Source: Apostichopus japonicus
Taxonomy: Eukaryota > Echinodermata > Holothuroidea > Aspidochirotida > Stichopodidae
Reading direction: 5' to 3'
NCBI RefSeq assembly: GCF_037975245.1
Contig: NC_092579.1
Location: 8,276,001-8,340,000 of the forward strand
Length of the DNA stretch: 64,000 nucleotides
Under the pieces are notes generated by a model. The model was not told the origin of the DNA, did not search any database, and was given only the letters and a program-made list of their open reading frames with translations. Below are positions 17,361 through 60,305 of the stretch, piece by piece. Each line of letters starts with the position of its first letter. Positions within the stretch are counted from its first letter, which is position 1. The position numbers and the translations under genes are program-made.

Positions 17361-20300
17361 ATGAAGTCCTTCTTTTGTGTCATCTCTCTTGTTTTCATGT
17401 GCTATGTGGTACTGATTATGGAGACAGAAGCTGCTCCTCTGTCGCTCGGCGATCTCCGTGAACGTAAGTAATTATACTGGGAATTAAAGGATATTTCCGA
17501 TGGCAGGCAATGTGAGACTTTTTTTCATATATAGGAGGGTAAAATATTCTACCCTAATTCTTATATCTTGCTCCCAACTCCAGATATGTATTTTTGTTTC
17601 TTTCTAAATCATTAAACTCCTTGTTTTTCTTAGATAAACCCTCCTTTTACTCCAGGAGGTGGGAAAGTACTAGTTGGTATTTGATCATGTGATCATGTAA
17701 GATTCTTTTCAAAAGCATTATTTTCCTGTTAGAATTATGTAGCTAATTTATCCCTGAGAAGGGATCGATTTGGAATGTTGCTATAGTTGTTAAGGTTCTC
17801 CGCATTAAGAATGTCATCTTTTCTGTAAATCTTCATCAAGGATATTTTCTTCTTCATTGGATAAAATTATTACATTTTATACATTGTGAAGAATTGCCAT
17901 GATGACGTCACTAATTCTGCTGTTGCCAGATGCTTTCGTCATCACGTGGTTTTGTATATACTAAAGATGCAGAATGTCAATGAATTTTCTTACACCATGA
18001 ATTAAAGCCACATGAATACTCCTCTTATATCTGGACCAGGGGCGTCGGAGCCGGTACGGCAGGTCCGGCGAAAGCCGGACCAATATTCACGGCGCAAAAA
18101 AAAAAGAAGAAAAAAAGTAGGACTAAGAAAAAAAATGGCAAAAAATGATGCCATGGCAAATAATGATGACGGCAAGTAGGCTAAATGTGACTACTCTGGC
18201 ATGGCAGGGGTCTTGTTTTTTGGGAAGTGCCATTTCCTGCAATCTTGGAGGCATTTTTAATTTTTTTTTTCCATTACGCTACGCGCCAATCATGGTGGCG
18301 CGTAGCGTAGTTTGACCTAGCAAATGTCCCCCGATAATCATGATAGATGGCCACACTCTAATCTGCCGTACCAATCCCAAATAGCTTCCGACGCCCCTGT
18401 GGAATAGTACATGTTGACAAGTACGGCTGCTAGGAAGGAATTTGAGAGGTTACTAAATAACATCCATAGAGATGAAGGACACCCACTCCATTGTGCAATA
18501 AACTCTCTGTGCAATAAGACAAACTACAATTTGAGGAATGCTGCAATAACTCCCAGATTCAGGATTGAACCTTATAGGAATTCTTTTGTTTATAGGGCGT
18601 CCATGTTCATACAGCATGGTGCTCTAGAACCATTGTTGTGATTGTGTTTTTTTTCAGTGTTATGCCTAGTATTTTCTATTTTATTTCTTTATCATAATTT
18701 TATTTATTTTCCCATTTATAAATTTTTAATGATTTACACTGGAAATAAAGAATTGAATTGAAGTAGCGCTTGAAGAATTCAACTTTACAAGCGGCGTTTA
18801 ACTTTTGCAATATAAAAGATTTATATCTCAATAAAAAAGATATGTAGATAAAGTTCCAAGAGAATGTTGCTATGTGGCCGTAACGTTGGTCCATTAAAAA
18901 GAAGTGCAAACGGTCTGCATTACGGAACGGTAACTGTTTTGTCATTACGCTTTTCGCAGATAACATGTTAATATGTAACATTAATCTCTACAAAAGAATA
19001 ATCGATTCTAGATTTCAACAGTTCATACCTATATGGTCGAGTATATGAAAAGCGGGAGGTTTGTTGAAGATATAGTAACTTATTGGCAAAGTTCATGTTT
19101 GCATAATTTAAGAATTCTCCATCCAAAAAGATTTTTACGTCATTGTAATTTTTTTAATTTATGAATGAGTTTTAATTTTTTTTTTATCAGTCATGTAAGA
19201 TGCAAACAAAATGCACGCAATGTTTCGATGAATCAACACATTTTGCATTTTATTCCTAGAAGCATATTTTCATCTTTAATTTGGAACGATAAGTACAGAT
19301 AGACAAAGTGCCCTTTTTTACAGTATGCATTGCTTGAATTTCTTACAGCTGTAGGGCAAGGGTTACTGGTGGAAAATGAGCAGGTTGAGTTAAAACGACA
19401 GAGAAGAAGCTATGACGAGACAAATGATGACAGTGATGATGATAGTGAAGAAAGCAGCGATTATAGTGACGAAGAAAGTACTGATAGTGACGATGACGAT
19501 GTTAGTGAAGGAAGCGGCGATGATAGTGACGATGATGATTACAATGATGACGAAGATGACGAGACAAGTGACGACAATTATTATGATAGTGAAGAAAGCA
19601 TCGATGATAGTGACAAAGAAAGTACTGATAGTGACGATGACGATGTTAGTGAAGAAAGCGGCGATGATAGTGACGATGATGATTACAATGATGACGAAGA
19701 TGACGAGACAAGTGACGACAATTATTATGATAGTGAAGAAAGCATCGATGATAGTGACGAAGAAAGTACTTATAGTGACGATGATGATATTAGTGAAGGA
19801 AGCGGCGATGATAGTGACGATGATTACAATGATGACGAAGATGACGAAACAAATAATGACAGTGATGATGATAGTGAAGAAAGCAACGATGATAGTGACG
19901 GAGAAAGTACTGATAGTGGCGATGATGATGTAAGTGAAGGAAGCGGCGATGATATTGACGATGATGATTACAATGATGACGAAGATGACGAAAGAAGTGA
20001 TGACAGTGATGATGATAGTGAAGAAAGCAGCGATGATAGTGACAAAGAAAGTACTGATAGTGACGATGACGATGTTAGTGAAGGAAGCGGCGATGATAGT
20101 GACGATGATGATTACAATGATGACGAAGATGACGAGACAAGTGACGACAATGATTATGATAGTGAAAGCATCTATGATAGTGACGAAGAAAGTACTTATA
20201 GTGACGATGATGATATTAGTGAAGGAAGCGGCGATGATAGTGACGATGATGATTACAATGATGACGAAGATGACGAAACAAGTGACGACAATGATTATGA

Positions 20301-21558
20301 TAGTGAAAGCATCTATGATAGTGACGAAGAAAGTACTTATAGTGACGATGATGATGTTAGTGAAGGAAGCGGCGATATTGACGAAGAAAGTACTGATAAT
20401 GACGATGATGATGTTAGTGAAGGAAGCGGCAATGATAGTGACGATGATTACAATGATGACGAAGATGACGAAACAAATAATGACAGTGAGGATGATAGTG
20501 AAGAAAGCAACGATGATAGTGACGGAGAAAGTACTGATAGTGGCGATGATGATGTAAGTGAAGGAAGCGGCGATGATATTGACGATGATGATTACAATGA
20601 TGACGAAGATGACGAAACAAGTGATGACAGTGATGATGATAGTGAAGGAAGCGGCGATGATATTGACGAAGAAAGTACTGATAGTGACGATGATGATGTT
20701 AGTGGAGGAAGCGGCGATGATAGTGACAATGATGATTACAATGATGACGAAGATGACGAGACAAGTGACGACAATTATTATGATAGTGAAGAAAGCATCG
20801 ATGATAGTGACGAAGAAAGTACTTATAGTGACGATGATGATATTAGTGAAGGAAGCGGCGATGATAGTGACGATGATTACAATGATGACGAAGATGACGA
20901 AACAAATAATGACAGTGATGATGATAGTGAAGAAAGCAACGATGATAGTGACGGAGAAAGTACTGATAGTGGCGATGACGATGTAAGTGAAGGAAGCGGC
21001 GATGATAGTGACGATGATGATTACAATGATGACGAAGATGACGAAAGAAGTGATGACAGTGATGATGATAGTGAAGGAAGCGGCGATGATATTGACGAAG
21101 AAAGTACTGATAGTGACGATGATGATGTTAGTGGAGGAAGCGGCGATGATAGTGACAATGATGATTACAATGATGACGAAGATGACGAAACAAGTGATGA
21201 CAGTGATGATGATAGTGAAGAAAGCAGCGATGATATTGACGAAGAAAGTACTGATAGTGACGATGATGATGTTAGTGAAGGAAGCGGCGATGATATTGAC
21301 GATGATGATTACAATGATGACGAAGATGACGAAATAAGTGATGACAGTGGTGATGATAGTGAAGGAAGCGGCGACGATAGTGACGAAGAAAGTACTGTTA
21401 GTGACGATGATGATGTTAGTGGAGGAAGCGGCGATGATAGTGACGATAATGATTACAATGATGACGAAGATGACGAAACAAGTGATGACAGTGATGATGA
21501 TAGTGAAGGAAGCGGCGATGATAGTGACGAAGAAAGTACTGATAGTAGTGACATCTAA
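17361..21558 (+). CDS. Gene A: secreted acidic repeat protein, candidate proteoglycan core
   Basis: Two coding exons: 17361-17463 and 19349-21558, joined in phase 1 (donor C|GTAAGT, acceptor CTTACAG|CT); predicted 770 residues. Residues 1-24 form a signal peptide (MKSFFCVISLVFMCYVVLIM then ETEA), then APLSLGDLRE and a short pro-region to RQRR at 51-54, a furin-type site before S55. The rest is about 14 repeats of 47-48 residues (141-144 bp; marker YNDDEDDE), almost only D, E, S, G, T, N and Y, with no cysteine. About 18 G-S-G tripeptides stand in acidic context (mostly SEGSGDD), the known setting for xylosyltransferase, so glycosaminoglycan chains are plausible (inference). No known family was recognised; phosphophoryn-like or mineral-binding roles are alternatives. 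An acceptor 6 bases further on is also possible. The frame is intact across 2.2 kb, whereas the long ORFs in the other frames are by-products of the GAY/AGY codons. Confidence 0.82.
18037..18399. mobile_element. hAT-like MITE in the intron of gene A
   Basis: The ends are inverted repeats of CAGGGGCGTCGGA. An inner palindrome (about 18278-18315) reads ACGCTACGCGCCA on one side and TGGCGCGTAGCGTA on the other. A segment near 18219 (GGGAAGTGCCATTTCC, then GGAGGCATTTT) recurs in the element at 61871-62179, so the two are related. No clean 8-bp target duplication was found at this copy. No coding capacity. Confidence 0.65.
18411..18765 (+). mobile_element. 3' tail of a non-LTR (LINE) retrotransposon
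   Basis: A 76-codon ORF contains NYNLRNAAITPRFRIEPYRN and a following Y-x-A region, resembling the last part of CR1/L2-type reverse transcriptase ORFs. Non-coding sequence ending in AATAAAGAATTGAATTGAA follows, a typical short-repeat LINE tail. It is 5'-truncated, as most LINE copies are. It lies in the intron of gene A, in the same orientation. Confidence 0.5.
19490..21540 (+). repeat. 141-144-bp coding tandem repeat of gene A
   Basis: The marker TACAATGATGACGAAGATGA starts at 19540, 19684, 19825, 19969, 20113, 20254, 20449, 20593, 20737, 20878, 21022, 21166, 21310 and 21454. Spacing is 141 or 144 apart from one step of 195. All spacings are multiples of three. Confidence 0.95.
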
Positions 21559-21965
21559 AACGGGGCTGTCGCGTTTTAATTTGGATGAATTAAAACCCTC
21601 TGCTTCAGTTAATTAAATATGGTATTTCTTGTAACCATGTTTGCTATCCGGTTGTATTTTGATGTTCTCTTCCTTGAACGAAAAAAAAAAGAAGAACATG
21701 CACAGACGTAATCACCAAGCATGGCCTGCAGCTTAGAATTGGGTTTGAGGGAGGGTAAACAACAGTCCAGTGTTGTTCACGGTTTTATGTCCACACGTTA
21801 CTTGAAGAGAAATTTATTCTGGTGGTTCACAATTCGGAACGGTTTTTGTTATCTCAGTCGAAGCTGTGAAGCAAAGCATATAATGAAGCAGATTTGATAT
21901 ATTTGTACTACAGTTTCTTTGTGGAGAGCAACAGCATCATCACGGTATAATGTGCATCACACCTG
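21559..21965. other. 3' flank of gene A
   Basis: No canonical AATAAA was seen close to the stop, and the conserved ~150-bp block found behind genes B, C and D was not recognised here. The polyadenylation site of gene A is therefore unresolved. Confidence 0.4.
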
Positions 21966-22335
21966 GAGTAAGTCCGCACGGTAAAGTGTAAATCACACTT
22001 GCAGTAAGTCTACACCGTAAAGTGTACATCAACATTGTAGTAAGCCCGCATCGTAAAATGTACTTGACACTTGCAGTAAGTCCACACCGTAAAGTGTACA
22101 TCACCCTTGCAGTAAGTCCGCACGGTAAAGTGTACATGACACTTACAGTAAGTCCACATCGTAAAGTGTACATCACCCTTGTAGTAAGCCCGCATCGTAA
22201 AGTGTACATGGCACTTGCAGTAAGTCCACACCGTAAAGTGTACATGGCACTTGCAGTAAGTCCACACCGTAAAGTGTACATCACCCTTGCAGTAAGCCCG
22301 CATCGTAAAGTGTACACGCCACTTGTAGTAAGTCC
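21966..22335. repeat. 36-bp minisatellite, about 10 copies
   Basis: The unit contains GTAAGTCCACACCGTAAAGT followed by GTACATSRCACTTGCA-type sequence. Starts fall every 36 bases from 21968 to 22328. Within each unit AAGTG and CACTT can pair around the TACATG core. ORFs on both strands are by-products of the 12-codon period. Confidence 0.92.
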
Positions 22336-29613: not shown

Positions 29614-29647
29614 AGAAGAAAGGAGAAATTGGTGAAACATCATCAAC

Positions 29648-32600
29648 ATGAAGCTATTCGTTGCTCTCCCTATTCTGCTCTTTGGAATTTTGATTGCGAT
29701 ACACGAACAATCAGAAGCGGCTCCGATTTCATCGAAATTGCTTCAAGGTAAGAGGACACTTTTTGGAAATGAGTTTAGTAATCCTCATTTATTAGTAATC
29801 CTTTAGAAGCGCAGCACTTTTAAAACCAAATAAAAGGTAAAAGCAAATTAACCCATTTGTAAAGCAATATACAAATTCCATCTTGGTTTTAATTGACTTG
29901 TCCTGACCAGTCTAAGTCTCGGAACAATGTATCCAGATGTATTGAAAGTTGACAATATGTAGAGAGCCACTGATGTTCACCCTAACCATGTTAATGCGTG
30001 TCATGTTGTTTCATGTTGTGGTTGTTTCTAACGACTGATATACTTGTGAAACTGAGTCGCTTTAACGGTACAACAAAGTCTGTGATTAAAAAATCACAAA
30101 GTGTATAATAAGAAACGTATGAAATGATACCGATTAATCTCAAGTCATCGTCAAATTTTAAATAGAATATAAGTGTGAACTTTTCTTTACTTTATTAGGA
30201 TTAAATGTAGTCAGTATAGGCCCCCAATGTTAGCACGCTATAATTGATAGACGTTTTCAAAAGTACTTTCATGGAAGTCTTTACTCTTCCAAATTGTTCT
30301 CAGACACTTGTAAGGAACACACAAGATGACTAAATGTCTCAATAATGTCTCAATAAGGAGAATTTCCTCGTAGGTTTTAATAAGAACAGTTTAAGAATTT
30401 TGACCAATGGTGACCATATTTGAATATCAGGCATATTTGGGGCCAATACAGCATACCTTTAAGTCATACATTAAATTCAAAACCGACTGCTTTTGCTTTC
30501 CTTTAAATATGAATTGAATTCAAATAGCAAAAATGATACAGTCTAAAATTATTATTTTATGTTTTCATGTTGATAATTTATGAAAAAGTGGTCTCAGCAA
30601 CGATAAATAAGGATTTCAATTGTAGAGGGATTCCAATTGCGGTTTTTATTTACTGAAAGCAATGATTAAGAAAGACAGATTGATGTGTTACACAATGAAA
30701 CAACTCCAAAAATTGGATCTTGACCAATGAGTATTCGTTTAAGCTCTTTGGATTTGATATATTTAATCGTAAACTTCATTATACCTAAAATTATGGTTGC
30801 TTACAAGCACGCTTCAAATCAGCTTAAAATATATCAAGCTTTAACTTCACTTCAACATTAGGTTTTTTTCACATTTTATTTTGTTAAACGTTGTTGTTGG
30901 CATAACAATCTGCCTACGTAGTAGACCAACTTTCACACCAAACAAGGAAATCTGAGGGGAAGATTTCAAAATGTTACAGACTTCCTTTACACTTCGAAAT
31001 ATAAGTTCCAGTTTAGTTTTTGTTCTTGGTTTGCTTCAAACATAAGCAAAAAACTAACATAAAATGGTATTTACTCATCTACGTTGGAAATCTTTTTCGT
31101 TTACGGCTGGCAAAAAGTCCACATCGCCGTTCTCAAGGCTGACGTCTGGTATGGTAAATCAAAATAGATATTCCCTCATATTTAACTCTACTTTGTTACT
31201 TGTATGGAATTTAATTATTCATGGGTGAATAAAACGTTATTTTCATGCTTCGTTCACAGCCACAACTGATTTTAAAGATATTCATCTACTGCGTCGACGA
31301 AGTGATGACAAAGATTCAGACAGTAGCAGCACCAGCAACGAAGACGACAATGATAATGATGAACAGGAGACTGAAGATGACAAAAACGCTGTCGTAGACG
31401 AAAACACACCAATCAGGAGACGAAGAAGCAGCAGTGGTAGCAGCAGTGGTAGCAGCAGTGGTAGCAGCAGTGGTAGCAGCAGTGGTAGCAGCAGTGGTAG
31501 CAGCAGTGGTAGCAGCAGTGGTAGCAGCAGTGGTAGCAGCAGTGGTAGCAGCAGTGGTAGCAGCAGTGGTAGCAGCAGTGGTAGAAGTAGTAAATCTAGG
31601 AGAGGTAGAAGTAGTAAATCTAGGAGTCACTCTAGCAAAAGTAATTCAAGAGACGATGACAGTGAAGAAGTGGATGACGAAGTTGTCGAACAACCTCCTG
31701 CTGTACATGGAGATGAGAATGTTGACCCACCTGCGGATGACGAACCGGGTGTAGATACGGTCGTTCCTGAAGGTGAAGATATTCCTCCTCCTGATAACAA
31801 TGGTGAGACACATCCTTTACCACTAACAGGAGGCGAAGATGAAGAAGAAGCTGCCCAAGGAAACACAAATGATGAGGAAACTGAAGATGACGACAATGAA
31901 GATGTAAACGGTAATGATAGTGAAAGTGATGATAGCAATGATGGTGACGATGGTGATGATAGTATCAATGACAACGACGAAGACACTAGTGGTAGCAGTA
32001 GAAGTGGAAGTAGTAAATCTAGGAGTCACTCTAGCAAAAGTAATTCAAGAGACGATGACAGTGAAGAAGAGGATGACGAAGTTGTCGAACAACCTCCTGC
32101 TGTACCTGGAGATGAGAATGTTGAACCACCTGCGGATGATGAACCAGGTGTAGATACGGTCGTTCCTGAAGGTGCGGATATTCCTCCTCCTGATAACAAT
32201 GGTGAGACAGGTCCTTTACCACTAACAGGAGGCGAAGATGAAGAAGACGCTGCCCAAGGAAACACAAATGATGAGGAAACTGAAGATGACGACAATGAAG
32301 ACGGAACCGGTGATGAAAGTGAAAGTGAAGATAGCAATGATAGTGACGATGGCGATGATAGTAACGATGATAACGACGAAGACACTAGCGGTATCAGCAG
32401 TGGTAGCAGTAGAGATAGAAGTAGTATATCTAGGAGTGACTCTAGCAAAAGTAATTCAAGAGACGATGACAGTGAAGAAGAGGATGACGAAGTTGTCGAA
32501 CAACCTCCTGCTGTACCTGGAGATGAGAATGTTGAACCACCTGCGGATGATGAACCAGGTGTAGATACGGTCGTTCCTGAAGGTGAGGATATTCCTCCTC

Positions 32601-33307
32601 CTGATAACAATGGTGAGACAGGTCCTTTACCACTAACAGGAGGCGAAGATGAAGAAGACGCTGCCCAAGGAAACACAAATGATGAGGAAACTGAAGATGA
32701 CAACAATGAAGACGGAACCGGTGATGAAAGTGAAAGTGAAGATAGCAATGATAGTGACGATGGCGATGAAAGTGACGATGATAACGACGAAGACACTAGT
32801 GGTAGCAGTAGAAGTGGAAGTAGTAAATCTAGGAGTCACTCTAGCAAAAGTAATTCAAGAGACGGTGACAGTGAAGAAGAGGATGACGAAGTTGTCGAAC
32901 AACCTCCTGCTGTACCTGGAGATGAGAATGTTGAACCACCTGCGGATGATGAACCAGGTGTAGATACGGTCGTTCCTGAAGGTGAGGATATTCCTCCTCC
33001 TGATATTAATGGTGAGACAGGTCCTTTACCACTAACAGGAGGCGAAGATGAAGAAGACGCTGCCCAAGGAAACACAAATGATGAGGAACCCGAAGATGAC
33101 GACAATGAAGACGGAACCGGTGATGATAGTGAAAGTGTAGATAGCAATGATAGTGACGATGGCGATGACGATACAGAGGAAAATAATGATGGTGATGATG
33201 AAAGTGACGACACAGAAGACGATGGGGGAGATGGGGGAGATATGACTGTAGAGGAAGACCAAAACGAAGAAGATGGCAACAACGGCGACGATCCAATTAC
33301 ACAGTAG
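29648..33307 (+). CDS. Gene B: secreted mosaic acidic protein with (SSSG)13 and acidic/proline modules
   Basis: Coding exons 29648-29747 and 31260-33307, joined in phase 1 (G|GTAAGA; TTCACAG|CC); predicted 715 residues. An acceptor at 29613 shows that the first coding exon begins with untranslated sequence, so a leader exon lies upstream. Order of parts: signal peptide (about 1-24, ending EQSEA); APISSKLLQ; RRR at 45-47 before S48; acidic linker; RRRR at 86-89 before S90; (SSSG)13 at 90-141; an RS/KS-rich basic stretch; four modules of 133-137 residues. Each module has an acidic part, EVVEQPPAVPGDENVEPP, then a P/G-rich part (IPPPDNNGET, LPLTGG) and an acidic S/D/N run. Ser-Gly pairs could carry glycosaminoglycan (inference). 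AATAAA lies at 33499-33504. No known family was recognised. It shares its architecture with A, C and D but has its own repeat. Confidence 0.83.
31427..31582 (+). repeat. 12-bp coding minisatellite (SSSG)13
   Basis: Thirteen exact copies of AGCAGCAGTGGT, in frame with gene B. Exact identity of all copies suggests recent slippage. The alternative-frame poly-alanine/valine and threonine ORFs here are shadows. Confidence 0.97.
31681..33130 (+). repeat. ~400-bp coding tandem repeat of gene B, four modules
   Basis: The marker AGTTGTCGAACAACCTCCTG starts at 31681, 32080, 32491 and 32890 (steps of 399, 411 and 399, all multiples of three). The first module differs most from the others. Confidence 0.95.
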
Positions 33308-33674
33308 TTATAAAACTGCTACCATTCCCCTTATTTGACCAACCATCGACAATTAAATATCGCTCCAAAATATTTTAGTCAGTGCCATAAATAATTTTAA
33401 AAATATTTTTAAATCTGTATTTAAGATAACAATTTCTTAACTTTTGACCCTTTGCAGTGTGTCATTTTTGAGCTTCTTTTGATAAAATATTAAACTTAAA
33501 TAAAACAAACACCTGTTTAAATATTTAGTATAAATCATGTATAAGATTAACAACTTCGTCATATATAGGAAAATTGACCATTGGATACATTTATAGGCCT
33601 ACTTCATGATAATCCAATTCCCTTTTTGTCGATACAATTTCGTAAACTTTTATCTTTTGAATTCCTTGAGTTAA

Positions 33675-33820
33675 CTGTTGGGTACGTTTTTATAATATCA
33701 AGGACAGTGTTTCTTATATTCATAAAAATACAGGCCACAACGGTAAGACCTACCAATTGTGCTAGAGAGCGATGAGTATGTCTCATCCTTCAATTCTTGC
33801 CGCCTGTTATAATTTATGAT
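33675..33820 (+). promoter_or_regulatory. Conserved 3' block of gene B
   Basis: About 370 bases after the stop codon lies a 146-bp block shared with genes C and D. Two cores are identical in all three: one starting TATCAAGGACAGTGTTTCTT and one with CTTGCCGCCTGTTATAATTT. It starts CTGTTGGGTA in B and C and nearly so in D. No shared open frame runs through the three copies, so a 3' UTR element is the best reading. Confidence 0.75.
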
Positions 33821-34429
33821 GAATTGTACATATAAGAGATATATAAAGTCTGAGATAAGGAAAATAAGCTATTGTTTGTTCTTTTTACGATACGTTTGTA
33901 CTTACGATACGTTTGTACGTTTGTCTTTTATGGGTCTTCGAAAAAAAATAAACATTTAGGTATTTAAAAAGCTTGCTTTTTAGAAGAGCCCGTATGTATA
34001 ATGTCAGCGTGCGTTGTGGAGATGGACAAACTTCAGAAGAACTAAAATGATATAATTCAGCTCAAAATTTTCTCTCGTTCCATATATTTCTTTGTGAAGG
34101 TTCCTTACATATTGTAGATCGCATCGCGAGTATCGACGGGGTGGGGAGGGGTGGGGGGGGGAGATGAAAGTGAAGGACACCTATTGCAATATTTTAATAA
34201 CAACTTAAAAAAGTTTAAGAGTAAACGCATAGCCTTATATTTTTCTAACAACGACAGACCATGTCTCCAAGTCTGTCTTGTTTTAGGAAATGTTTGCACA
34301 AGGGTTAGCATAACCTATAACAATATGCTGAATTCTTTCTGGCCCTTATTGATACACCTGCTTGGATCATGCGTCAAACTTGAAACAGAATAACACAAAC
34401 GGTGGCCGGTGTAATAAATAGTTCCAACT
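33821..34429. other. No gene recognised
   Basis: 3' flank of gene B. It has a small tandem repeat of ACGATACGTTTGTAC near 33887-33918 and a G-rich run at 34139-34163. Confidence 0.4.
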
Positions 34430-34430
34430 C

Positions 34431-35225: not shown

Positions 35226-35296
<71 letters not shown>

Positions 35297-43178: not shown

Positions 43179-43237
<59 letters not shown>

Positions 43238-46489: not shown

Positions 46490-46509
46490 TGGCCAGCAAT
46501 CGTTGAGAG

Positions 46510-47719: not shown

Positions 47720-50280
47720 ATGAAGCTCCATCTTGCATTCGTTTCCATGTCTCTATTCTTTGGAGTGATGATTTTGCTGTTGCCACAAGAGTCACAGACA
47801 GCGCCTCTCTTACTACGGAAAGGTAAATTTGTTATTCTAAAATAAAATATTGTAGGACCTAAAATGGTCCGATTATTTAGAATATTTCTTGTCCGTATCT
47901 TAGAATGTTTACCCCTTACGTAGACAAATCAATTCAACTAATCTACTTAAATTATATTCCCATCAAGGTGAAATCATTGCCAATCGCCGACATTTGTATT
48001 TGAAGTAATTCAAATGATTCAGTCTTTGCATACAATTTGCGATGATACACCATCCTTATTGTTATATTAATCCGTCTTTAGCTATCATATGAGCAACACA
48101 CGAATTTGAAAAACCAATGTAGAAATAATGATAATATGAGCTTCTTTATCAGTATCGTCAACCATATTCAGTAACCTAAAGCAGTTACTATTGCATTTAA
48201 TTCGAAGTTGTATGATTAAATTATTATATGACAGCTTCTGTAAAATGTGGACGACTAAACGAGCATAATTGGGGTGTTCTAGATTGTTCGAAGTTCACAC
48301 AACTATACATTTCTAACTGTAAAAGTGAACAAAACTTAATGAATTATACATTTACTTGAAATAGCTTTAAATTTAAACCACCGAAATATTGCAATGTTAG
48401 TAATACATTACTACCTTTTAAATTTCTCAACAGGTACAAATTTCTATTTTGAAGACAATGCCAACAACTTAAGACAGCGTAGAAGTGATGGCAGTAGCTC
48501 CGTTAGTAACGACACAAGCGACGACGAGGAGGAGAGCAATGACACAGACGATGAAAGTGATAATACAGAGAACACAACTGACGAAGATGAAGAGGATGCA
48601 GTGACTGAAGTCGAAGATGAAGAGGATGTAGTGACTGAAGTCGAGGATGAAGATGCAGTGACTGATGCTCCAGCTGACAGACGTCGCAGAAGTGCCGATA
48701 GTAGCACTTCTGATGAAGACGCCGATAGTAGCACTTCTGATGATGACGAGGAGGAGAGCAATGACACAGACGATGAAAGTGATGATACAGAGAACACAAC
48801 TGACGAAGATGAAGAGGAGACAGTGACTGAAGTCGAAGATGAAGAGGATGTAGTGACTGAAGTCGAGGATGAAGATGCAGTGACTGATGCACCAGCTGAC
48901 AGACGTCGCAGAAGTGCCGATAGTAGCACTTCTGATGCAGACGCCGATAGTAGCACTTCTGATGATGACGAGGAGGAGAGCAATGACACAGACGATGAAA
49001 GTGATGATACAGAGAACACAACTGACGAAGATGAAGAGGAGACAGTGACTGAAGTCGAAGATGAAGAGGATGTAGTGACTGAAGTCGAGGATGAAGATGC
49101 AGTGACTGATGCTCCAGCTGACAGACGTCGCAGAAGTGACGATAGTAGCACTTCTGATGACGACGCCGATAGTAGCACTTCTGATGAAGACGAGGAGGAG
49201 AGCAATGACACAGACGATGAAAGTGATGATACAGAGAACACAACTGACGAAGATGAAGAGGAGACAGTGACTGAAGTCGAAGATGAAGAGGATGTAGTGA
49301 CTGAAGTCGAGGATGAAGATGCAGTGACTGATGCTCCAGCTGACAGACGTCGCAGAAGTGACGATAGTAGCACTTCTGATGACGACGCCGATAGTAGCAC
49401 TTCTGATGAAGACGAGGAGGAGAGCAATGACACAGACGATGAAAGTGATGATACAGAGAACACAACTGACGAAGATGAAGAGGAGACAGTGACTGAAGTC
49501 GAAGATGAAGAGGATGTAGTGACTGAAGTCGAGGATGAAGATGCAGTGACTGATGCTCCAGCTGACAGACGTCGCAGAAGTGACGATAGTAGCACTTCTG
49601 ATGACGACGCCGATAGTAGCACTTCTGATGAAGACGAGGAGGAGAGCAATGACACAGACGATGAAAGTGATGATACAGAGAACACAACTGACGAAGATGA
49701 AGAGGAGACAGTGACTGAAGTCGAAGATGAAGAGGATGTAGTGACTGAAGTCGAGGATGAAGATGCAGTGACTGATGCTCCAGCTGACAGACGTCGCAGA
49801 AGTGACGATAGTAGCACTTCTGATGACGACGCCGATAGTAGCACTTCTGATGAAGACGAGGAGGAGAGCAATGACACAGACGATGTAAGTGATGATACAG
49901 AGAACACAACTGACGAAGATGAAGAGGAGACAGTGACTGAAGTCGAAGATGAAGAGGATGTAGTGACTGAAGTCGAGGATGAAGATGCAGTGACTGATGC
50001 TCCAGCTGACAGACGTCGCAGAAGTGCCGATAACAGCAATTCTGATGAAGACGCCGATAGTAGCACTTCTGATGAAGACGAGGAGGAGAGCAATGACACA
50101 GACGATGAAAGTGAAGATACAGAGAACACAACTGACGAAGATGAAGAGGAGACAGTGACTGAAGTCGAAGATGAAGAGGATGTAGTGACTGAAGTCGAGG
50201 ATGAAGATGCAGTGACTGATGCTCCAGCTGACAGACGTCGCAGAAGTGCCGATAGCAGCACTTCTGATAATGACGATTAA
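47720..50280 (+). CDS. Gene C: secreted acidic polyprotein cut at tetrabasic sites (74-residue repeats)
   Basis: Coding exons 47720-47822 and 48434-50280, phase-1 intron of 611 bp; predicted 649 residues. Signal peptide MKLHLAFVSMSLFFGVMILL plus LPQESQT, then APLLLRK and a pro-region ending in RQRR (48-51) before S52. The rest is a 74-residue unit (222 bp): acidic S/D/T/E sequence, TEVEDEEDVVTEVEDEDAVT, DAPAD, then RRRR before S. There are eight RRRR-S sites, seven full units between them and a short tail ending SDNDD. Furin/proprotein convertases cut R-X-K/R-R, so the secretory pathway could release a run of near-identical acidic peptides (inference). Each unit has two N-glycosylation sequons (NDT, NTT) and no cysteine. 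Four central units are nearly identical. No known family was recognised. Introns, promoter and 3' block are shared with gene D, its closest relative. Confidence 0.87.
48681..50245 (+). repeat. 222-bp coding tandem repeat of gene C
   Basis: ACGTCGCAGAAGT recurs every 222 bases from 48681 to 50235 (seven steps). Units 3-6 are nearly identical at the DNA level, pointing to recent amplification or gene conversion. Confidence 0.96.
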
Positions 50281-50700
50281 AATATAACAATCTATTCCAC
50301 CTCGGATTCATTTAGGCAATTAAATTAGAGATTAACACGTAAAGATTTTAACTTTTGAGGTATTGTACACAATTTTGCATTACAAGATATAAAACTTTAT
50401 TAATTGAAGATATCAAATAGGAGCTATTTTGGTTGAACTCTCACAAAATGTTTCGTGGTAGAACTTGTTTAGGAACGGTATTAAGCTAAAAAAGTAATAA
50501 CAGTGGCTGAATCTACTGTTTTCATTTTGTGGGTGGGGGAGTTAGGAGGGGAGCGGGGTTTTACCGCACTGCCAATTAGTAACAGAAGGAAAGTGATAGT
50601 TTTGTTAAGGTAAAATCTTCTAATTATCGTAGGTAACACATAAAGTAGGCCTACGTGGTAGTCGTAAAGTCCTTTTTATTTTTATTTCATTAAAGTTCAG

Positions 50701-50853
50701 CTGTTGGGTATTTTTTTTTATAATATCAAGGACAGTGTTTCTTATATTCATAAAAAAATACAGGCCACAACGGTAAGACTTACAAGTTGGTGCTACGAGT
50801 AATGCCAAGTGTATATCAAGCTTCAATTCTTGCCGCCTGTTATAATTTATGAT
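50701..50853 (+). promoter_or_regulatory. Conserved 3' block of gene C
   Basis: Starts 421 bases after the stop and matches the blocks behind genes B and D over about 150 bp. GAAATATATAAG follows; AATATA is a known variant polyadenylation hexamer, so the block probably sits at the very end of the transcript. Confidence 0.75.
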
Positions 50854-51114
50854 TGTAAATATGAGAAATATATAAGTCCTATAAAAAGCATTTCTTGTGT
50901 TTCACATTTTTATTCTTAAAGTAAGAATTTAACAAAAAGATAAAATTTAAGATAATTTGTAAAATATGAGTCGCACAAGACGGTCAGTATATGATGATGA
51001 CTGAAAAGAGTTAGTTTTTATGAAACATAACATTTAAATCGCTGACAGAGCAAAGAGGATCTCAATATTGAGTGCCACTCACAAGCAGTGAATTTCAAAA
51101 AGAAAGAATCAATA
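50854..51114. other. 3' flank of gene C
   Basis: Nothing recognised between the conserved 3' block and the LINE fragment. Confidence 0.4.
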
Positions 51115-51582
51115 GGCTAAGCACATCACTCCTGTACTCCGTTCATTGCATTGGCTTCCCGTCTCTCAGCGCATCCAGTTTAAGATCCTACTTCACACCT
51201 GCAAAGCGATCAACGGGCTTGGCTCTCAATATATTACTGACCTTCTTAATCCTTTGCGTCGGTCAACTACAGTTACGCTCCGCTCTTCCTATCATGCGCA
51301 TTTGCAATTAACTCCTGGTCCACGTACCCGCACTCGTTATGGCGACCCTGCCTTTTCTGTCGCTGCGCCTTCTCTTTGGAACGAACTCCCATTTCACGTT
51401 CGTGACTCTCCCTCCCTTTGTATTTTCAAGAGACAACTTAAAACATTTCTGTTTGATTCCTAGTTTTTTTTGTGTTTTTTTTCTTGTTTTCCTTGGTTTC
51501 CTTTGTCTCTTTCCTACTTTGCAAAGCGATTTGAAACGCTGTATTAAGCGCTATATAAATTTTTATAATTATTAATATTAAG
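51115..51582 (+). mobile_element. L2/CR1-type LINE, 3' end fragment
   Basis: The frame reads ITPVLRSLHWLPVSQRIQFK, then ILLHTCKAINGL, later RYGDPAFSVAAPSLWNELPF and LKTFLFDS, the standard C-terminus of L2/CR1-clade reverse transcriptase polyproteins. The 3' tail AAAGCGATTTGAAACGCT with GCGCTATATAAATTTTTAT and ATT repeats is typical of L2. The copy is 5'-truncated; this last part of the ORF is open to its stop. Confidence 0.9.
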
Positions 51583-53034: not shown

Positions 53035-53310
53035 CACGTATGACTCATTACAAATGAAAACACCTAACAAATTTAGTGAATCATAAAGAAGGGAATTCCT
53101 GCAATTGAAAACCGTTTGGGATAACCCCTATGATTCATTGAAAATAAATGCATCTCAACACGGCTTTGACGTCATCAACAATTATATTTGCAAACAGTTA
53201 TACAGCCTTGTTAACAGAATGACGTATATAGCCTATATTCGATATGCTCGATGGAACACAAGGTCGAATAGCCTCGATATTGTTCATTGTATATATATAG
53301 CGCCATTACC
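53035..53310. repeat. Upstream cassette, copy 2
   Basis: Contains TATGACTCATT, GGGAATTCCTGC, CCCCTATGATTCATT, TTGACGTCATC (TGACGTCA at 53167-53174), TAACAGAATGACGTA, TATGCTCGATGGAACACAAG, and TATAGCGCCA at the end. Same order as copy 3. Confidence 0.65.
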
Positions 53311-54228
53311 ATCACGATATACTACTAGAGTCCCAATTCATATAGACACTAATAACAAAATGACTCAACGTTGGAAGTTATCTAGGCCTTTACTGTCAAC
53401 TGAGTATAAAATCCTCATCTACCATTATCATTGAGCATTTTATAATCTACCAGAAACAATTTGTAGGGAAAATATGAACGTGTAAGAGGGAAAACAAATG
53501 TTCATGCATACCTTTAAGAAAGATATTAAAACTTTAATAGGTCTCATAATAGCCACTAAATTAGCAAATCTAGCACTCAGCTCATCAAAGTTTGACAGAG
53601 TTCCTTATGCAAGTACTAAGTTTCTTTTCATTCTTCTATAGACATAAATGGGAATCAATAAGAAAAAAAGTTTTCCATTTTACATTAAAGTCGATGATAT
53701 GCCTGCATGCTTATAGTTTTCATCGTTTAACTCTTATCCAGCAGTCATTTCAGATCATACCATCAACGTATCAAACTACAAATAACCGCAAGTGGAATTT
53801 ATGAAAGCTAACAAAGCTATTTATGGTAATATAAATTGACTCATTCCATGTATGCGTGTAGTTGGCTAGTTCATTCATTTCTGTTTTCGGAGCTGTTCCT
53901 ATAAATAACACCAATGTTGACTCAAAGAAAACTAGCAAAAGAGGGGCAAAATGGTTGTGTCTAACAGCCTGACAGTAACATAAGACCCTGGAACATTTAC
54001 ATATAGTTTGATGCATATATATACACTGTCGCTTTAGTAGTTCAGCAGTTTCTTAATCTTTCTCTCTTGAAATCAAATTGAAAATCGTCTTGAAACGGTT
54101 GGAACTTCGGAAAGAAGGGAAAGAGATGGAGAGCGCATGAAGCGATAGAAAAAGCTATGCTGAGAGATACCCACAATTACCTCCGTAATACGTCACGCGA
54201 TGAAGAAGATACCAGATGAAACCAATCA

Positions 54229-54545
54229 GGGTAACCCCTATGACTTATTCAAAATTCCAACAACAAAAAAACAGTTGTGATTCATAAAGTAGGGAATTCC
54301 GTCAAACCCAAACCTTGTTAGGGTATATGAACAATACATAAAACTATATAGGTTATCACCTATAAGATCTACCTGTGATAAGTTGCTTCAATCACCTAAC
54401 TCAACACCTCTATGACGTCATTCACACGTGAACCTTCACAAACAATCGTAGAATTTGCTAACAGAAATGACGTAGTCTGTTTATATGCTCCATTGAACAC
54501 AGGGTCGAAAAACCGGGATAAAATTTGTCTTTGTATAGCGCCAGC
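54229..54545. repeat. Upstream cassette, copy 3 (before gene D)
   Basis: Starts GGGTAACCCCTATGAC. It has AAGTAGGGAATTCC, CTCTATGACGTCATTC (TGACGTCA at 54413-54420), CTAACAGAAATGACGTAG, TATGCTCCATTGAACACAGG and TATAGCGCCA. It lies about 1.7 kb before the gene D promoter. Confidence 0.65.
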
Positions 54546-55442
54546 ACTATGACGCTAGGCCTCGAGTTCTATTTCAGTGACGTAATACCTTATTAGGGGT
54601 AGATATTCAATCCCTTACAGCAGATCCATAGTTTTTCGGTGAATACCGATAACAGCTACCAACTAGCGGTACATAAGAAAATATCGCAAACAATTTCGGT
54701 AAATAGTAATGCCCGCGCCAGCTTGCCAAATATTACACTACTTTGTTTTACAACTTACAATATGTTTGCAGATAGACTTTAATGCTGAAAACATCTAGAA
54801 AATCTTACATATTAAAGTTACTATCTTTTCAATCGGTCTATAATCCCCATTTTTAGAAAATTTCGAAGCTGTTACTGTTGTCTTTCTGTCGTAACCCTTT
54901 AACTTCCCTTACAGGGATTGAACCCTTGCACTGATATATTATTTAACAGAACCAATATGCCATGATGGAAGTTTGTAAGGAAAAGCGTCATTGCTTTACG
55001 ACATGTTTAGAGTTCTCATTATAAATGCTAGCACCCGAATTCATTCAGTTCATCAACGTATGAAACAGAACTCACAAGTAATAAGTTCCTTCTACATATT
55101 CGTCCACGGACATAAACTTTAGGTGGACTGAATAAAAACATTTCCAATCTACACATTGATGAACCTGGTATACCCTTATTGAGGTATAACCGAAATAAGT
55201 GTTTCTGACGTTTACTGGTTGTCGGATGTGGGTACCGTCCGAAACAAAACACTTGGGGATTCCTGATTGGTTAGTATATATCAATTACTTGTATTGTACT
55301 ATCAGCTGCTCATGAAATCGTCTAGGTAATAAAGCTGATTATTCGGTTGGTTGTTGGTTGGTTAATCGATTAATTCGTTACAAACTGTCGGGATCATAAT
55401 GAGTTTTAAGGTGGGAAATAATTCATATTGGGAGCTCTAAAG
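54546..55442. other. No gene recognised
   Basis: Sequence between the upstream cassette and the hAT-type MITE; short ORFs only. Confidence 0.4.
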
Positions 55443-55974
55443 CAGGTTTTCCCTAACTTTATCCCCCAGGAACCCCCTGTGGATGTCAGAGTTGTCCACG
55501 AACCCCCAAATTTTCGAGACACGATCTGATTCATTATTGTCACTCAACAACAAATTTCAAGCATGAATTTATGCTAACTTTGCTTTATGTCGGGCAAAAT
55601 GGAGGTCATCTGGAATTTTCAAAATAATAATAATTACTTTGGCCAACCTTTCAGTTACTTTCTCAGCTCTTTATCTTCACGACGTACTGTCATGCGTACA
55701 CCAACTTCACCAAAGTCATGCGGCCTGTGTCTGTTTCATAATTCAATTATTTATCACTTGAACGGTACGGTACTACTATGGCAACATATGCGTATGGAAC
55801 GCGAAAAATAGTTTGTCGATAGGTACGACTTTGTATATTACTAAATTATATGATATATCAGATTTTAGTTCAACAAAAAGTACTCTAGTTTTAAATTCAG
55901 AAACGTCTCCCGAACCCCCTGGGATGGACTCACGCACCCCCTTGGGGTTCATGCAACCAGTTAGGGAACCCCTG
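55443..55974. mobile_element. hAT-type nonautonomous DNA transposon (532 bp)
   Basis: The left end CAGGTTTTCCCTAACT and right end AGTTAGGGAACCCCTG form a 16-bp TIR with two mismatches. A perfect 8-bp target duplication CTCTAAAG flanks it (55435-55442 and 55975-55982). The 8-bp duplication and the CAG...CTG ends are the hAT signature. It contains only a short ORF that does not resemble a transposase. Confidence 0.93.
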
Positions 55975-56195
55975 CTCTAAAGTAACCCACACGATTAAAA
56001 CTAATATTAAGGACCCAGTGTAGACAGTTATGACGGAGCACTTTTTAAACATTTTCAATGATTGCACGTTATTGGCCATTCTTCATTTACTTTAATTTTC
56101 TGACAAATTGGATTTTATTATAAATATACAATACATAGTCTGGTAAGGTCATTCAAGCAAATCTGATTTCGAGGTCACAAAATCAGATCGGTGGG

Positions 56196-56289
56196 CATTC
56201 CTCGTGCGGCTCGTGAGTCATTGTCTTATAATAATAATAGGTGTCATGTTTCGTCAATAGTTAATTTTAGTGAGCAAAACGTTATAAAA
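56196..56289 (+). promoter_or_regulatory. Gene D promoter (AP-1 site plus TATA box)
   Basis: ATTCCTCGTGC at 56197-56207, TGAGTCA at 56214-56220, AATAATAGGTG, TTTTAGTGAG and TATAAAAA at 56283-56290. Partial similarity to the gene C promoter continues further upstream (CATTCAAGCAA, GAGGT). Confidence 0.75.
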
Positions 56290-56309
56290 ATGGCCATGAA
56301 TCTTTCAAA

Positions 56310-56481
56310 TCTCCACAAATCACGGAGAAGTCTTCACATACAGACATCAGCTGTTTAATGAAAATTGAACTATACGAGGGTTACCATCCTGCTACTTCAC
56401 AACACTGAGAAAGAAACTCCTGAAGAATTACCAAGAAAATAAGAAAAACTCTCAACTCATCTTAAATACCCAATACATTTG
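56310..56481 (+). other. Gene D 5' UTR exon with a small upstream ORF
   Basis: Start estimated from the TATA box; ends at donor G|GTAAGT after 56481. Unlike gene C, it carries an ATG at 56358 opening a 16-codon ORF (MKIELYEGYHPATSQH) that stops at 56408, before the main start. Intron 1 ends at the acceptor CTTTTAG at 57618. Confidence 0.65.
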
Positions 56482-57653
56482 GTAAGTACACTATGTACGT
56501 GCTTCTACTTTAAAATAGTCATTCAGTTGAATTGATTTTTCTGTAGCAATTGTAGTGAGCAATTCTTCAATAAACAAATGTTTGGTATACTAATTTCCTT
56601 TTATTTCATTGTATAATTGTAAATCAGCATTAATTGTTTAACTTTGTAAAGATAGTCTAGCCGTTTTATCTACATTTAGAACAAAGGAAATTTTAGAAGA
56701 ATAAAAATATCTCAATCGATCTATTATAAATTAAATCATATTTCTTTCTTTATTATTTAAATCTCCATTATATAAACTTTAAATTTAAAGGATTTTTCAA
56801 TTGCATTCGTATCAACATTTCAGTTTAAAAAGGGTAAATGCAATATGATATCCAAGTTATGAAACAGGCAATGTAACATATCCAAAAATATTTCACTGAC
56901 TGAAAGGGAATCAGCAAAGTAAAACACTTTACTTGAAATGTTCAAGATTAAATGTTTACGATTGTAATAGCTAACACTGCTTACTTTTGAGGTAATTTCG
57001 GTGTACCACCACTGTGCAAAACACTTCGGAATTTATATATAACATACTCTCATCATTTCTGATGAGATCCTTTTTGGATTAAAGTAACAGACAGATTTTG
57101 TAGGCAGCCAAGTATTCCTCATGTAAAGAACGACCATGGTATTTCAGGTTATTGTGAACTGAAATTAAATGTTAACTCATCATATATGGCTAACCTATGT
57201 AGTGTCCACACTGCTGTCCCATTGTACAACACTGTTTTGTCGTATTCCTTATTATGTTCACCCCGCCATGATTATAGCTCCAAACGCGTTCGATGTCGCA
57301 GTGAATGTGCTTAAAAATATTTTCATTTGGTTCTTTAAAAGTATTATAATAATGGGATATGGCACATACAACAAAATTAAGCTTAGTTGGTTTAAACCGT
57401 CCCATAAATTAAATTGTTGAGTGTTTTCTTTATATATTTTTTTTAAATTTTTTTTATTATCATTCCATCAAGTATCCAAAAATTGTTGAGTGTTGTTTAG
57501 GAGCCTGAAGATGATATTGAAAATATGTAGTGATAAAACTGTAAAAACATCGAATTCAATATTGATATAATTTCGTTCCTCTTGTTTTCAACCTAACTTC
57601 CTCTTTATCTCCTTTTAGCTAACCAAAAAAGACAGTTTAAATATCAACTCACA

Positions 57654-60305
57654 ATGAAGCTTCATCTGGCATTTGTTTCCATGTCTCTATTTCTTGGAGT
57701 GATGATTTTGTTGCTACCACAACAGTCAGAGACAGCCCCAATCTTATTACGGAAAGGTAAATTTATTGATGAAACATTATGTAGAACAAGAAATTATCCG
57801 AATAATTAAAGATATTTCTTCCCGGTATATTAGGACTTTTACGTACACATATCAATTAAAATAAGCACTGTATCTATTTTTATTATACTCCTGTCAAGGC
57901 AAAGCCATGGTCGATTTTCCAATTTTTTGTATTTTAAGCAATTCAAATGATTTCATTCAAAAAAGTTAAGTTTGTTACAGATTGTAATGTATACAGTTTA
58001 GTTACAATTTCTATTGTTGTATTAATCCGTGTTGAGCTGTCATTTGAACAAACATAGGCTTGAAAAATATCTATTAATCATGATAATGGGCTCCTTTTAT
58101 AAGTATCGATAACCATATACAGAAACCAAACACGGTAGTGATTGCATTAAAATCAAAATTGTTTAACTACTTTATACTGAGACAAAGACGAAACAAAGAT
58201 ATCAGACAAATTGAAGTGTTCTAAATTGTCCAAAGTTTAAGCAACTATATCTTCATTAAATTTAGAATTGAACTTAACAAGAATCTCACCGTTGATATGA
58301 ATTAATTGATAATATATTACACCGAGTTAGTGTGATAAAAGTAATACATCTATTTCTTTTAAAATTCCCAACAGGTACAGGTGGACATTTTTTTCTTGAA
58401 GTGAACGCTAATAAATTAAGACAACGTAGAAGTGAGGAAAATAGCTCACAAAGTAACGATAACGATGAAAGTGATGATACAGAGAACACAACTGACGAAG
58501 ATGAAGAGGATGCAGTTACTGAAGTCGAGGATGAAGATGCAGTGACTGGCGCTCCAGCTGCAAGACGTCGCAGAAGTGCCGATAATAGCACTTCTGATGA
58601 TGACGAGGAGGAGAGCAATGACACAGACGATGAAAGTGATGATACAGAGAACACAACTGACGAAGATGAAGAGGATGCAGTCACCGAAGTCGAGGATGAA
58701 GATGCAGTGACGGATGCTCCAGCTGCAAGACGTCGCAGAAGTGCCGATAATAGCACTTCTGATGATGACGAGGAGGAGAGCAATGACACAGACGATGAAA
58801 GTGATGATACAGAGAACACAACTGACGAAGATGAAGAGGATGCAGTCACCGAAGTCGAGGATGAAGATGCAGTGACGGATGCTCCAGCTGCAAGACGTCG
58901 CAGAAGTGCCGATAATAGCACTTCTGATGATGACGAGGAGGAGAGCAATGACACAGACGATGAAAGTGATGATACAGAGAACACAACTGACGGAGATGAA
59001 GAGGATGCAGTTACCGAAGTCGAGGATGAAGATACAGTGACTGATGCTCCAGCTGCAAGACGTCGCAGAAGTGCCGATAATAGCACTTCTGATGATGACG
59101 AGGAGGAGAGCAATGACACAGACGATGAAAGTGATGATACAGAGAACACAACTGACGAAGATGAAGAGGATGCAATTACTGAAGTCGAGGATGAAGATGT
59201 AGTGACTGAAGCTCCAGCTGTTAGACGTCGCAGAAGTGTCGATAATAGCACTTCTGATGATGACGAGGAGGAGAGCAATGACACAGACGATAAAAGTGAT
59301 GATACAGAGAACACAACTGACGGAGATGAAGAGGATGCAATTACTGAAGTCGAGGATGAAGATGTAGTGACTGAAGCTCCAGCTGTTAGACGTCGCAGAA
59401 GTGCCGATAATAGCACTTCTGATGATGACGAGGAGGAGAGCAATGACACAGACGATGAAAGTGATGATACAGAGAACACAACTGACGAAGATGAAGAGGA
59501 TGCAATTACTGAAGTCGAGGATGAAGATGTAGTGACTGAAGCTCCAGCTGTTAGACGTCGCAGAAGTGTCGATAATAGCACTTCTGATGATGACGAGGAG
59601 GAGAGCAATGACACAGACGATAAAAGTGATGATACAGAGAACACAACTGACGGAGATGAAGAGGATGCAATTACTGAAGTCGAGGATGAAGATGTAGTGA
59701 CTGAAGCTCCAGCTGTTAGACGTCGCAGAAGTGCCGATAATAGCACTTCTGATGATGACGAGGAGGAGAGCAATGACACAGACGATGAAAGTGATGATAC
59801 AGAGAACACAACTGACGAAGATGAAGAGGATGCAATTACTGAAGTCGAGGATGAAGATGTAGTGACTGAAGCTCCAGCTGTTAGACGTCGCAGAAGTGTC
59901 GATAATAGCACTTCTGATGATGACGAGGAGGAGAGCAATGACACAGACGATGAAAGTGATGATACAGAGAACACAACTGACGAAGATGAAGAGGATGCAA
60001 TTACTGAAGTCGAGGATGAAGATGTAGTGACTGAAGCTCCAGCTGTTAGACGTCGCAGAAGTGCCGATAATAGCACTTCTGATGATGACGAGGAGGAGAG
60101 CAATGACACAGACGATGAAAGTGATGATACAGAGAACACAACTGACGAAGATGAAGAGGATGCAATTACTGAAGTCGAGGATGAAGATGTAGTGACTGAA
60201 GCTCCATTTGTTAGACGTCGCAGAAGTGTCGATAATAGCACTTCTGATGATGACGAGGAGGAGGAAATGAATGATGCGGACGCCGAAAAAGACGACGAAA
60301 TTTAA
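57654..60305 (+). CDS. Gene D: secreted acidic polyprotein cut at tetrabasic sites (55-residue repeats)
   Basis: Coding exons 57654-57756 and 58375-60305, phase-1 intron of 618 bp; predicted 677 residues. Signal peptide MKLHLAFVSMSLFLGVMILL plus LPQQSET, then APILLRK and a pro-region with RQRR at 50-53 before S54, nearly the same as gene C. The repeat is 55 residues (165 bp): S(A/V)DNSTSDDDEEESNDTDD, ESDDTENTTDEDEED, TEVEDED, AP, then RRRR. There are eleven RRRR-S sites and ten full units between them, with a final acidic tail ending DDEI. Compared with gene C, each unit lacks the second acidic block and has three N-glycosylation sequons (NST, NDT, NTT). There is no cysteine in the mature part. 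Processing to free acidic peptides is inferred from the convertase sites. Secretion is well supported; function is unknown. Confidence 0.87.
58563..60222 (+). repeat. 165-bp coding tandem repeat of gene D with a 330-bp higher-order period
   Basis: AGACGTCGCAGAAGT recurs every 165 bases from 58563 to 60213 (ten steps). From site 5 (59223) onwards the units alternate RRRRSV and RRRRSA; the blocks starting at 59223 and 59553 carry the same K and G variants and look identical over 330 bp. Confidence 0.95.

Follow-up and report, generated by a model that had tools for sequence, protein, structure and literature searches.

The stretch of DNA considered here is a window of 64,000 nucleotides from the sea cucumber Apostichopus japonicus (contig C19, positions 8276001-8340000, in an assembly of 671.6 Mb and 35 contigs). 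It carries four plus-strand genes, A to D, for predicted secreted, hyper-acidic repeat proteins; three of them (B, C and D) are followed by a conserved 3' element, the first hairpin of which has the form of a classic iron-responsive element (IRE). For several comparisons the window was extended to 174 kb by adding 50 kb ahead of it and 60 kb behind it, and every position is given in window coordinates unless the contig is named.

Gene models

Each of the four genes consists of a short signal-peptide exon closed by a phase-1 donor and of one repeat exon, which is given here with its stop codon. In gene A, exon 1 (17361-17463) encodes the signal peptide MKSFFCVISLVFMCYVVLIMETEAAPLSLGDLRE and exon 2 (19349-21558) a pro-region that runs to RQRR-S, after which come repeats of Asp and Ser. 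Gene B has its signal peptide, MKLFVALPILLFGILIAIHEQSEAAPISSKLLQ, at 29648-29747, and its second exon (31260-33307) encodes LRRR-S, an acidic block running to RRRR-S and four acidic/Pro repeats of about 133 residues. The exons of gene C lie at 47720-47822 (MKLHLAFVSMSLFFGVMILLLPQESQTAPLLLRK) and 48434-50280, those of gene D at 57654-57756 (MKLHLAFVSMSLFLGVMILLLPQQSETAPILLRK) and 58375-60305; in both, RQRR-S is followed by acidic units. The four genes were found where a preliminary description of the window had placed them, and its repeat exons of 1.8-2.2 kb, with a basic cleavage site ahead of the acidic domain, were borne out in A-D. Its signal exon of "~33 codons" has 33 codons in B and 34 in A, C and D, each plus one base, and the A-P signal ends that it had described were seen in all four.

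The signal peptides were assigned by eye and by hydropathy. A crude filter for a signal peptide with a phase-1 donor returned 11 rows in the window, five of which end in x-AP-[LI], these being the heads of A-D and one internal start in D's own exon. Since each head is also followed, 0.6-1.9 kb downstream on its own strand, by a repeat exon, the four heads are considered to be more than chance. All four introns are predicted to be of phase 1, with a GT donor and a pyrimidine-rich CAG acceptor; the acceptors were picked by context from the 5, 7, 6 and 9 candidate AGs (A, B, C and D, respectively) that lie no more than 150 bases from where the acceptor was expected and keep the joined frame open. 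The predicted spliced products have 770, 715, 649 and 677 amino acids.

The open frames are in themselves weak evidence of coding, because antisense and other frames of the repeats are open as well. This openness is also what would be seen if the repeat exons were non-coding, satellite-like arrays or dead genes, and the same could be said of the weak constraint among repeat units, for which the ratio of nonsynonymous to synonymous differences (pN/pS) is 0.65 in A, 0.84 in B, 0.74 in C and 0.57 in D, of the tandem-repeat-rich neighbourhood of the array within the window, and of heads that have no relative in protein searches (see below). Such an origin is nevertheless very improbable: head, phase-1 intron, basic site and acidic body recur five times with matching frames, and C and D agree at 89 of 103 bases of exon 1 but at only 399 of 584 in the intron. 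Hence, the case for coding rests on the repeated anatomy, the in-frame unit lengths, pN/pS below 1 and the better conservation of exon 1 than of the intron between C and D.

Extent of the array

A tandem family of secreted, hyper-acidic repeat proteins, as proposed in the preliminary description, is near certain, but its count of four genes was too low. The array extends downstream past the window and holds at least five complete genes (A, B, C, D and F) plus one 5'-truncated copy (G); this continuation and the 3' element of B-D are additions to that description. Gene F, beyond the window (C19:8356756-8359021), has a signal exon at 80756-80852, encoding MKLPVIAAVLLLGVLMTSLEADAAPVSIRTNH, and, after a predicted phase-1 intron, a second exon at 81445-83021 (or from 81448). 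The product of 556-557 residues is 57% Asp+Glu and contains 22 RKRR-S sites, the first of which closes a 57-residue pro-region and leaves 21 after it. Set between the RKRR sites are 22 Asp runs of at least six residues, all but one of them (21/22) 10-19 residues long.

The truncated copy G lies farther downstream, at 85766-87350 (C19:8361766-8363350), and belongs to a unit that copies the repeat exon and 3' flank of F with 94.9% identity over 3.6 kb, starting within exon 2. Upstream of G, five weak signal-peptide candidates were found, none of which has the A-P end of the family. In the 50 kb upstream of the window, no acidic frame of at least 130 residues was seen. It was also found that the 3' flank of D is duplicated in tandem (8.4 kb), the sequence from 60642 onward recurring from 69022 onward (C19:8336642 and C19:8345022). 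The duplicate is 99.6% identical over 7.9 kb and includes the D 3' element without the D exons; it may be a recent event or an assembly artefact.

Protein bodies, cleavage sites and glycan motifs

The repeat units differ from gene to gene, as had been described. Gene A has units of 47-48 residues, with one of 65 and a partial last one; gene B has four of 133-137, the last with a tail; gene C has seven of 74, a first of 69 and a last of 11; and gene D has ten of 55, a first of 48 and a last of 26. Asp and Glu make up 53, 33, 46 and 43% of the products of A, B, C and D, the bodies of which have net charges of -399, -203, -265 and -241, respectively. The pro-region, counted from the A-P at the signal end, is 24-31 residues long in A-D and ends in RQRR-S in A, C and D and in LRRR-S in B, the latter being a tribasic site that lacks the outer Arg found in the furin consensus. 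Further RRRR-S sites number eight in C and 11 in D, one per repeat unit, with one in B and none in A. The body of B begins with a lone acidic block, the end of which (TPI-RRRR-S) makes it resemble, by eye, a unit of C or D.

Regular sites of this kind, of which C, D and F have 8, 11 and 22 (RRRR-S or RKRR-S, one per unit), would also be expected of precursors of signalling peptides, many copies of which would be freed by furin-type cuts. This is improbable, as the products are of low complexity, hugely acidic and devoid of Cys, and A and B have no regular sites.

A second alternative, possible though on balance doubtful, is that the genes encode secreted cores with heavy glycosylation, in which A and perhaps also B would bear glycosaminoglycans and C and D would give N-glycosylated acidic peptides of mucus or jelly. 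GSG flanked by acidic residues occurs 18 times in gene A and is absent from B-D, and this motif is close to the xylosylation consensus; yet this signal, with a chance P of 0.01 in the shuffled unit, is a single motif within a unit copied many times. Of the 38 Asn in the product of D, 33 lie in N-x-S/T sequons (P 0.008 in the shuffle at unit level), but the excess in C is weak (unit P 0.06) and F has one sequon only. SSSG occurs 13 times in B, and SG is counted 26 times in A and 19 times in B but not once in C, D or F. Taken as sequence motifs on few independent sites, the GSG copies and sequons suggest that the products are glycosylated.

Relations within the family and to known proteins

The preliminary description held that the head of these genes was conserved while the body had been reinvented, and this is true in part. 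On comparison with a block-shuffled control, the protein heads of C and D are clearly alike (z 15.6), likeness is fair for A-B, B-D and B-F (z 3.1-3.7), and it is weak for the other six pairs (z 1.3-2.3). The DNA comparison of the gene regions showed, on the other hand, that C and D have a common body, and the acidic block of B resembles their unit. When B is set against C or D, conservation of the DNA is highest in the 3' element and not in the heads, which give no DNA match; the bodies give three short DNA matches only, between B and D (62-94 bases, 68-73%).

In Pfam and NCBIfam, no family scored above the cut-off for A, B, C, D or F, in agreement with the earlier statement that no named family of this layout was known; the two sub-threshold rows, a Pfam one for D and an NCBIfam one for B, fall within low-complexity stretches. 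A search of solved structures with gene B gave no match. When exon 2 of D was compared with the genome, only C and D were matched among the best 69 of 121 candidates, which were the ones scored.

The closest layout is that of the sea-urchin SpTransformer (Sp185/333) genes, which are described as clustered two-exon genes with a leader followed by a diverse, repeat-rich exon for the mature protein (PMC5491942), and around the clusters of which segmental duplications are reported (PMC5491942; PMC10887614). Genes A-D and F are likewise clustered and have a leader exon and then a repeat exon (layout as in PMC5491942). The proteins differ, in that the five found here have no RGD, 0-0.9% His without a His-rich region, and 0.2-10.5% Gly (the top value in B) without a Gly-rich region like theirs; they have hyper-acidic bodies and basic cleavage sites instead.

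Three further systems share parts of the plan. The precursors of fish egg polysialoglycoproteins have a signal peptide and acidic tandem repeats that are cut into many glycopeptides; the likeness is one of general plan. Vertebrate SCPP proteins such as DSPP are secreted, acidic and rich in Asp and Ser, and are encoded in a tandem cluster, but their introns are of phase 0, as against phase 1 in A-D and F, and they are taxonomically distant. Serglycin-type proteoglycan cores have Ser-Gly repeats in a secreted acidic protein, which A and B recall with their SG dipeptides, unlike C, D and F; attachment of chains is putative.

A conserved 3' element

Apart from the repeats, the only DNA that B was found to share with C or D is an element that starts 0.33-0.51 kb past the stop codons, on the plus strand, in the presumed 3' untranslated region (UTR). 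It lies at 33640-33846 in B, 50662-50875 in C and 60812-61006 in D, with 81-85% identity among the three copies (over the common part, B is 81% identical to C and 84% to D). A poly(A)-type signal follows 18-27 nt past the core, AATAAA in D (at 60999) and TATAAA in B and C. In windows of 20 alignment columns, 17-20 are identical among B, C and D at the first hairpin and at the proximal arm of a second one, 8-9 in the loop of the second hairpin and again 20 at its distal arm, and only 0-6 farther out on either side. The second hairpin is found at 33730-33807 in B, 50760-50840 in C and 60889-60968 in D, on the plus strand, with the arms ACAGGC/GCCUGU and GGUAAGA/UCUUGCC (in B) around a variable loop; its folding z values are -3.3, -1.3 and -3.1 in B, C and D.

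On searching the genome with the element, four close copies were found in 672 Mb among the best candidates, which were the ones scored. All four are in the array, three of them being those of B, C and D and the fourth lying in the duplicated flank of D. An origin of the element as a transposon or a short interspersed nuclear element is disfavoured, as four close copies, all within this array, were found in the 672 Mb. A third coding exon was rejected, as the gaps between the copies are not multiples of three and would break any frame. Diverged copies of the element lie behind F (83578-83711; C19:8359578-8359711) and G (87911-88045; C19:8363911-8364045), the latter not being independent of F's. 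Both retain CTTGCCGCCTGT and CAGGCC and lack a canonical IRE. The persistence of these two motifs in F and G, where the IRE is absent, raises the possibility of a separate role for the second hairpin.

A covariance model built from the five copies and run over the 174 kb scored the five sources and the D duplicate at 111.8-156.5 bits, and the other six rows at 14.1-19.0. For gene A, no element was found by BLAST or by this model over the 174 kb. As the model finds six places and nothing else above 19 bits, A is taken to have none.

The first hairpin as a probable iron-responsive element

The first hairpin of the element occupies 33692-33722 in B, 50720-50750 in C and 60850-60880 in D, on the plus strand. 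In B and C its RNA reads AAUAU-C-AAGGA-CAGUGU-UUCUU-AUAUU; in D, where it begins AGUAU, one A-U pair is replaced by G-U, which preserves the pairing and is the only change within the ten pairs. A classic IRE is characterized by five features: a C14-G18 pair across the loop, A15 G16 U17, U or C at position 19, a bulged C8 and an upper helix of five pairs (as set out in PMC8466369). Measured against the features given there, B, C and D all have CAGUG in the loop, U at position 19, a bulged C (at 33699, 50727 and 60857, respectively) and a five-pair upper helix, AAGGA/UUCUU, with one G-U pair. The hairpin is on the sense strand, 0.39-0.55 kb past the stop codon and just upstream of the poly(A)-type signals, in what is presumed to be UTR.

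The same fold was recovered by RNAalifold from B, C and D without a template, and single-sequence folding gave -5.9 kcal/mol for each hairpin, with z of -3.1, -3.5 and -2.4 for B, C and D. Among 4227 Rfam families, the top match by E-value was IRE_II (RF02253) for all three, at 26.3 bits in B and C and 20.7 in D. Sites with five upper and five lower pairs (strict sites) numbered three in the window and four in the 174 kb, all inside the element; in sequence simulated with an order-2 model of the region, one such site was found in 61.2 Mb of single strand. Outside the element, weaker IRE-like sites were seen twice in the window (7172 and 8499) and three times in the 174 kb, two of these being identical. 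On these features of the sequence, the hairpin of B-D is probably an IRE.

Compared with the IREs in the 3' UTRs of TFRC and DMT1 (Rfam IRE_II), the hairpin has the same bulged C, five-pair upper helix, CAGUGU pseudo-triloop and AU-rich lower helix, and the same place on the sense strand past the stop codon. It differs in lying beside genes for secreted acidic repeat proteins and not beside an iron transporter or receptor, in occurring once per gene, accompanied by another conserved hairpin, and in its Rfam score below gathering.

Ferritin genes of the same genome served as controls. A first control with a loop pattern gave 13 sites in the genome as against 13 in the reversed control; among 12 loci, one had a bulged C and a full upper helix with a poor lower stem (2/5), and simple motifs revealed no ferritin exon in these 3-kb loci. 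A laxer scan, which allowed a bulged C or G, called for at least four pairs in the upper helix and left the lower stem free, found an IRE in the ferritin gene on contig C7, with the bulged C 96 nt before the ATG, the loop CAGUGA and five upper plus three lower pairs. Three IRE-like sites passed this filter in two 20-kb ferritin regions, and one of them is the ferritin IRE.

Several results weigh against the assignment, or against the iron control built on it. The ferritin IRE itself fails the strict filter because its lower stem is offset (5+3), an offset that is usual in ferritin IREs, and the second ferritin-like locus, on contig C5, gave no IRE in 20 kb under the laxer scan. All three IRE_II scores are below the gathering score of 30. 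A genome search with IRE_II found none among the best 87 of 105,764 first-look candidates, those being the ones scored, and its controls gave none either. AU-rich in its stem, the hairpin has a G-U pair in the upper helix, and its ten pairs show no two-sided compensatory change among B, C and D. As these three genes are homologous, their hairpins represent one event that was kept, not three. The F copy of the element keeps CAGUG and not the stems, the consensus structure of the five copies includes the second hairpin and not the IRE, and no poly(A) signal was seen within ~240 nt of the F and G copies. Since F is without a canonical IRE and A without the element, iron control, if real, covers three of the five complete genes. 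The genome search with the element scored the best candidates only and F's diverged copy escaped it, so that other diverged copies may exist elsewhere in the genome. Finally, searches of a protein database with the heads, a check of the kind that the preliminary description had proposed for echinoderm proteomes, gave nothing at E <= 1 among the 30 and 145 candidates scored, a result limited by candidate length; that database includes at least one named sea-cucumber protein.

Some of these points would be accounted for if the family were real and secreted and the element had another purpose at the RNA level (localisation, stability or 3'-end formation), one served by the second hairpin together with the CTTGCCGCCTGT block, with the likeness to an IRE incidental. 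Part of the element is kept more widely than the IRE, as F and G show by keeping CTTGCCGCCTGT and CAGGCC, and the Rfam scores and the five-copy consensus fit this alternative too. It is rather unlikely, however, as none of the three genes B, C and D shows a break in the bulged C, the CAGUGU loop or either helix, and chance very rarely produces a strict IRE.

Proposed mechanism and metal role

According to the proposed mechanism, the precursors would enter the secretory pathway by means of the short signal peptide and then shed the pro-region at the furin-type or tribasic site. C, D and F would be recut at the 8, 11 and 21 RRRR-S or RKRR-S sites beyond the first, giving short acidic peptides that carry N-glycosylation sites in C and D and are nearly pure poly-Asp in F, and A would remain a long Asp/Ser chain. 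As the first hairpin of the element is a classic IRE in form, iron regulatory protein (IRP) should bind the mRNAs of B, C and D at the 3' IRE when cell iron is low. IRP bound to an IRE in the 3' UTR is described as stabilising the mRNA (PMC7034838), and binding would likewise raise the stability of the B-D mRNAs, as happens with the IREs in the 3' UTRs of transferrin receptor and DMT1. In this way, genes B-D would respond to iron demand with secreted polyanions that bind metal, most likely for holding or gathering extracellular iron.

Judged from sequence, chances are about even for the joint reading in which the products are protease-cut secreted polyanions, B-D are targets of IRP and the role is an extracellular one with metal. 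The metal role alone stands lower and is doubtful. It is tentatively proposed that B-D form an IRE regulon of secreted polyanions, in which the bodies turn over freely, the 3' element is nearly fixed, and acidic glycopeptides, cut by proteases, would be secreted on iron demand and hold or collect extracellular metal.

The roles in mineral, mucus, adhesive or matrix that had been suggested earlier were guesses, and the one regulatory clue found in the DNA points to iron. It is because of the IRE that the holding of iron is preferred as the role. Calcium binding is likely to be a property common to the whole family, since the most acidic members, F (57%) and A (53% Asp+Glu), are those without an IRE. 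It may even be, although this is not the likelier course, that the proteins are mineral or matrix polyanions that bind calcium in the ossicles or body wall, and that what they do is unrelated to iron even where their mRNAs respond to it. The poly-Asp runs of F, 21 of 22 of them 10-19 residues long, and the Asp/Ser repeats of A are a calcium-binding kind of sequence, but no Pfam family was matched and the IRE would be left unexplained.

Verified IRE genes are few: ten types are given in PMC8466369, including ferritins, transferrin receptor, ALAS2, SDHB, ACO2, ferroportin, DMT1, CDC14A and EPAS1, and no secreted polyanion is among these ten (PMC8466369). A 3' IRE in an invertebrate is not new in itself, because such elements have been predicted in molluscs, and IREs have also been predicted in sponges (PMC7850002; PMC7034838). 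Within the literature consulted on IREs in echinoderms and sea cucumbers, no report was found of one in such a gene. Should B-D prove to be genuine targets of IRP, the reach of iron control in animals would extend to secreted acidic proteins of matrix type. The regulation and use of such echinoderm proteins could then be tested by means of an iron chelator and a single mutant of the hairpin, and distant members of the family would be better recognised by the 3' RNA element than by protein sequence.

Neighbouring features

Five Rfam tRNA matches form a tandem array on the minus strand at 11223-13977, starting at 11223, 11871, 12532, 13201 and 13861, with a spacing of 650-670 bp and 48 bits each. 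The matches probably have a long intron, as each spans 117 bases; ARAGORN, in its bacterial setting, reported none of these tRNAs. At 3389-4177, on the plus strand, lies a long open frame that resembles PERCC1 and has a sub-threshold match to the TEAD-interacting Omega-loop (PF15238). Its product is 56% identical to HOLleu_17435 of Holothuria leucospilota and 98% identical to a second protein, encoded on a 1.6-kb contig (three matches among 194 candidates), which marks the window as holothuroid. A frame at 51116-51463 resembles, by eye and with no Pfam match, the end of a reverse transcriptase of the long interspersed nuclear element type. Upstream of the array, an exon of a tektin gene was identified on the minus strand (L013:6826-7653; PF03148, E 4e-39).

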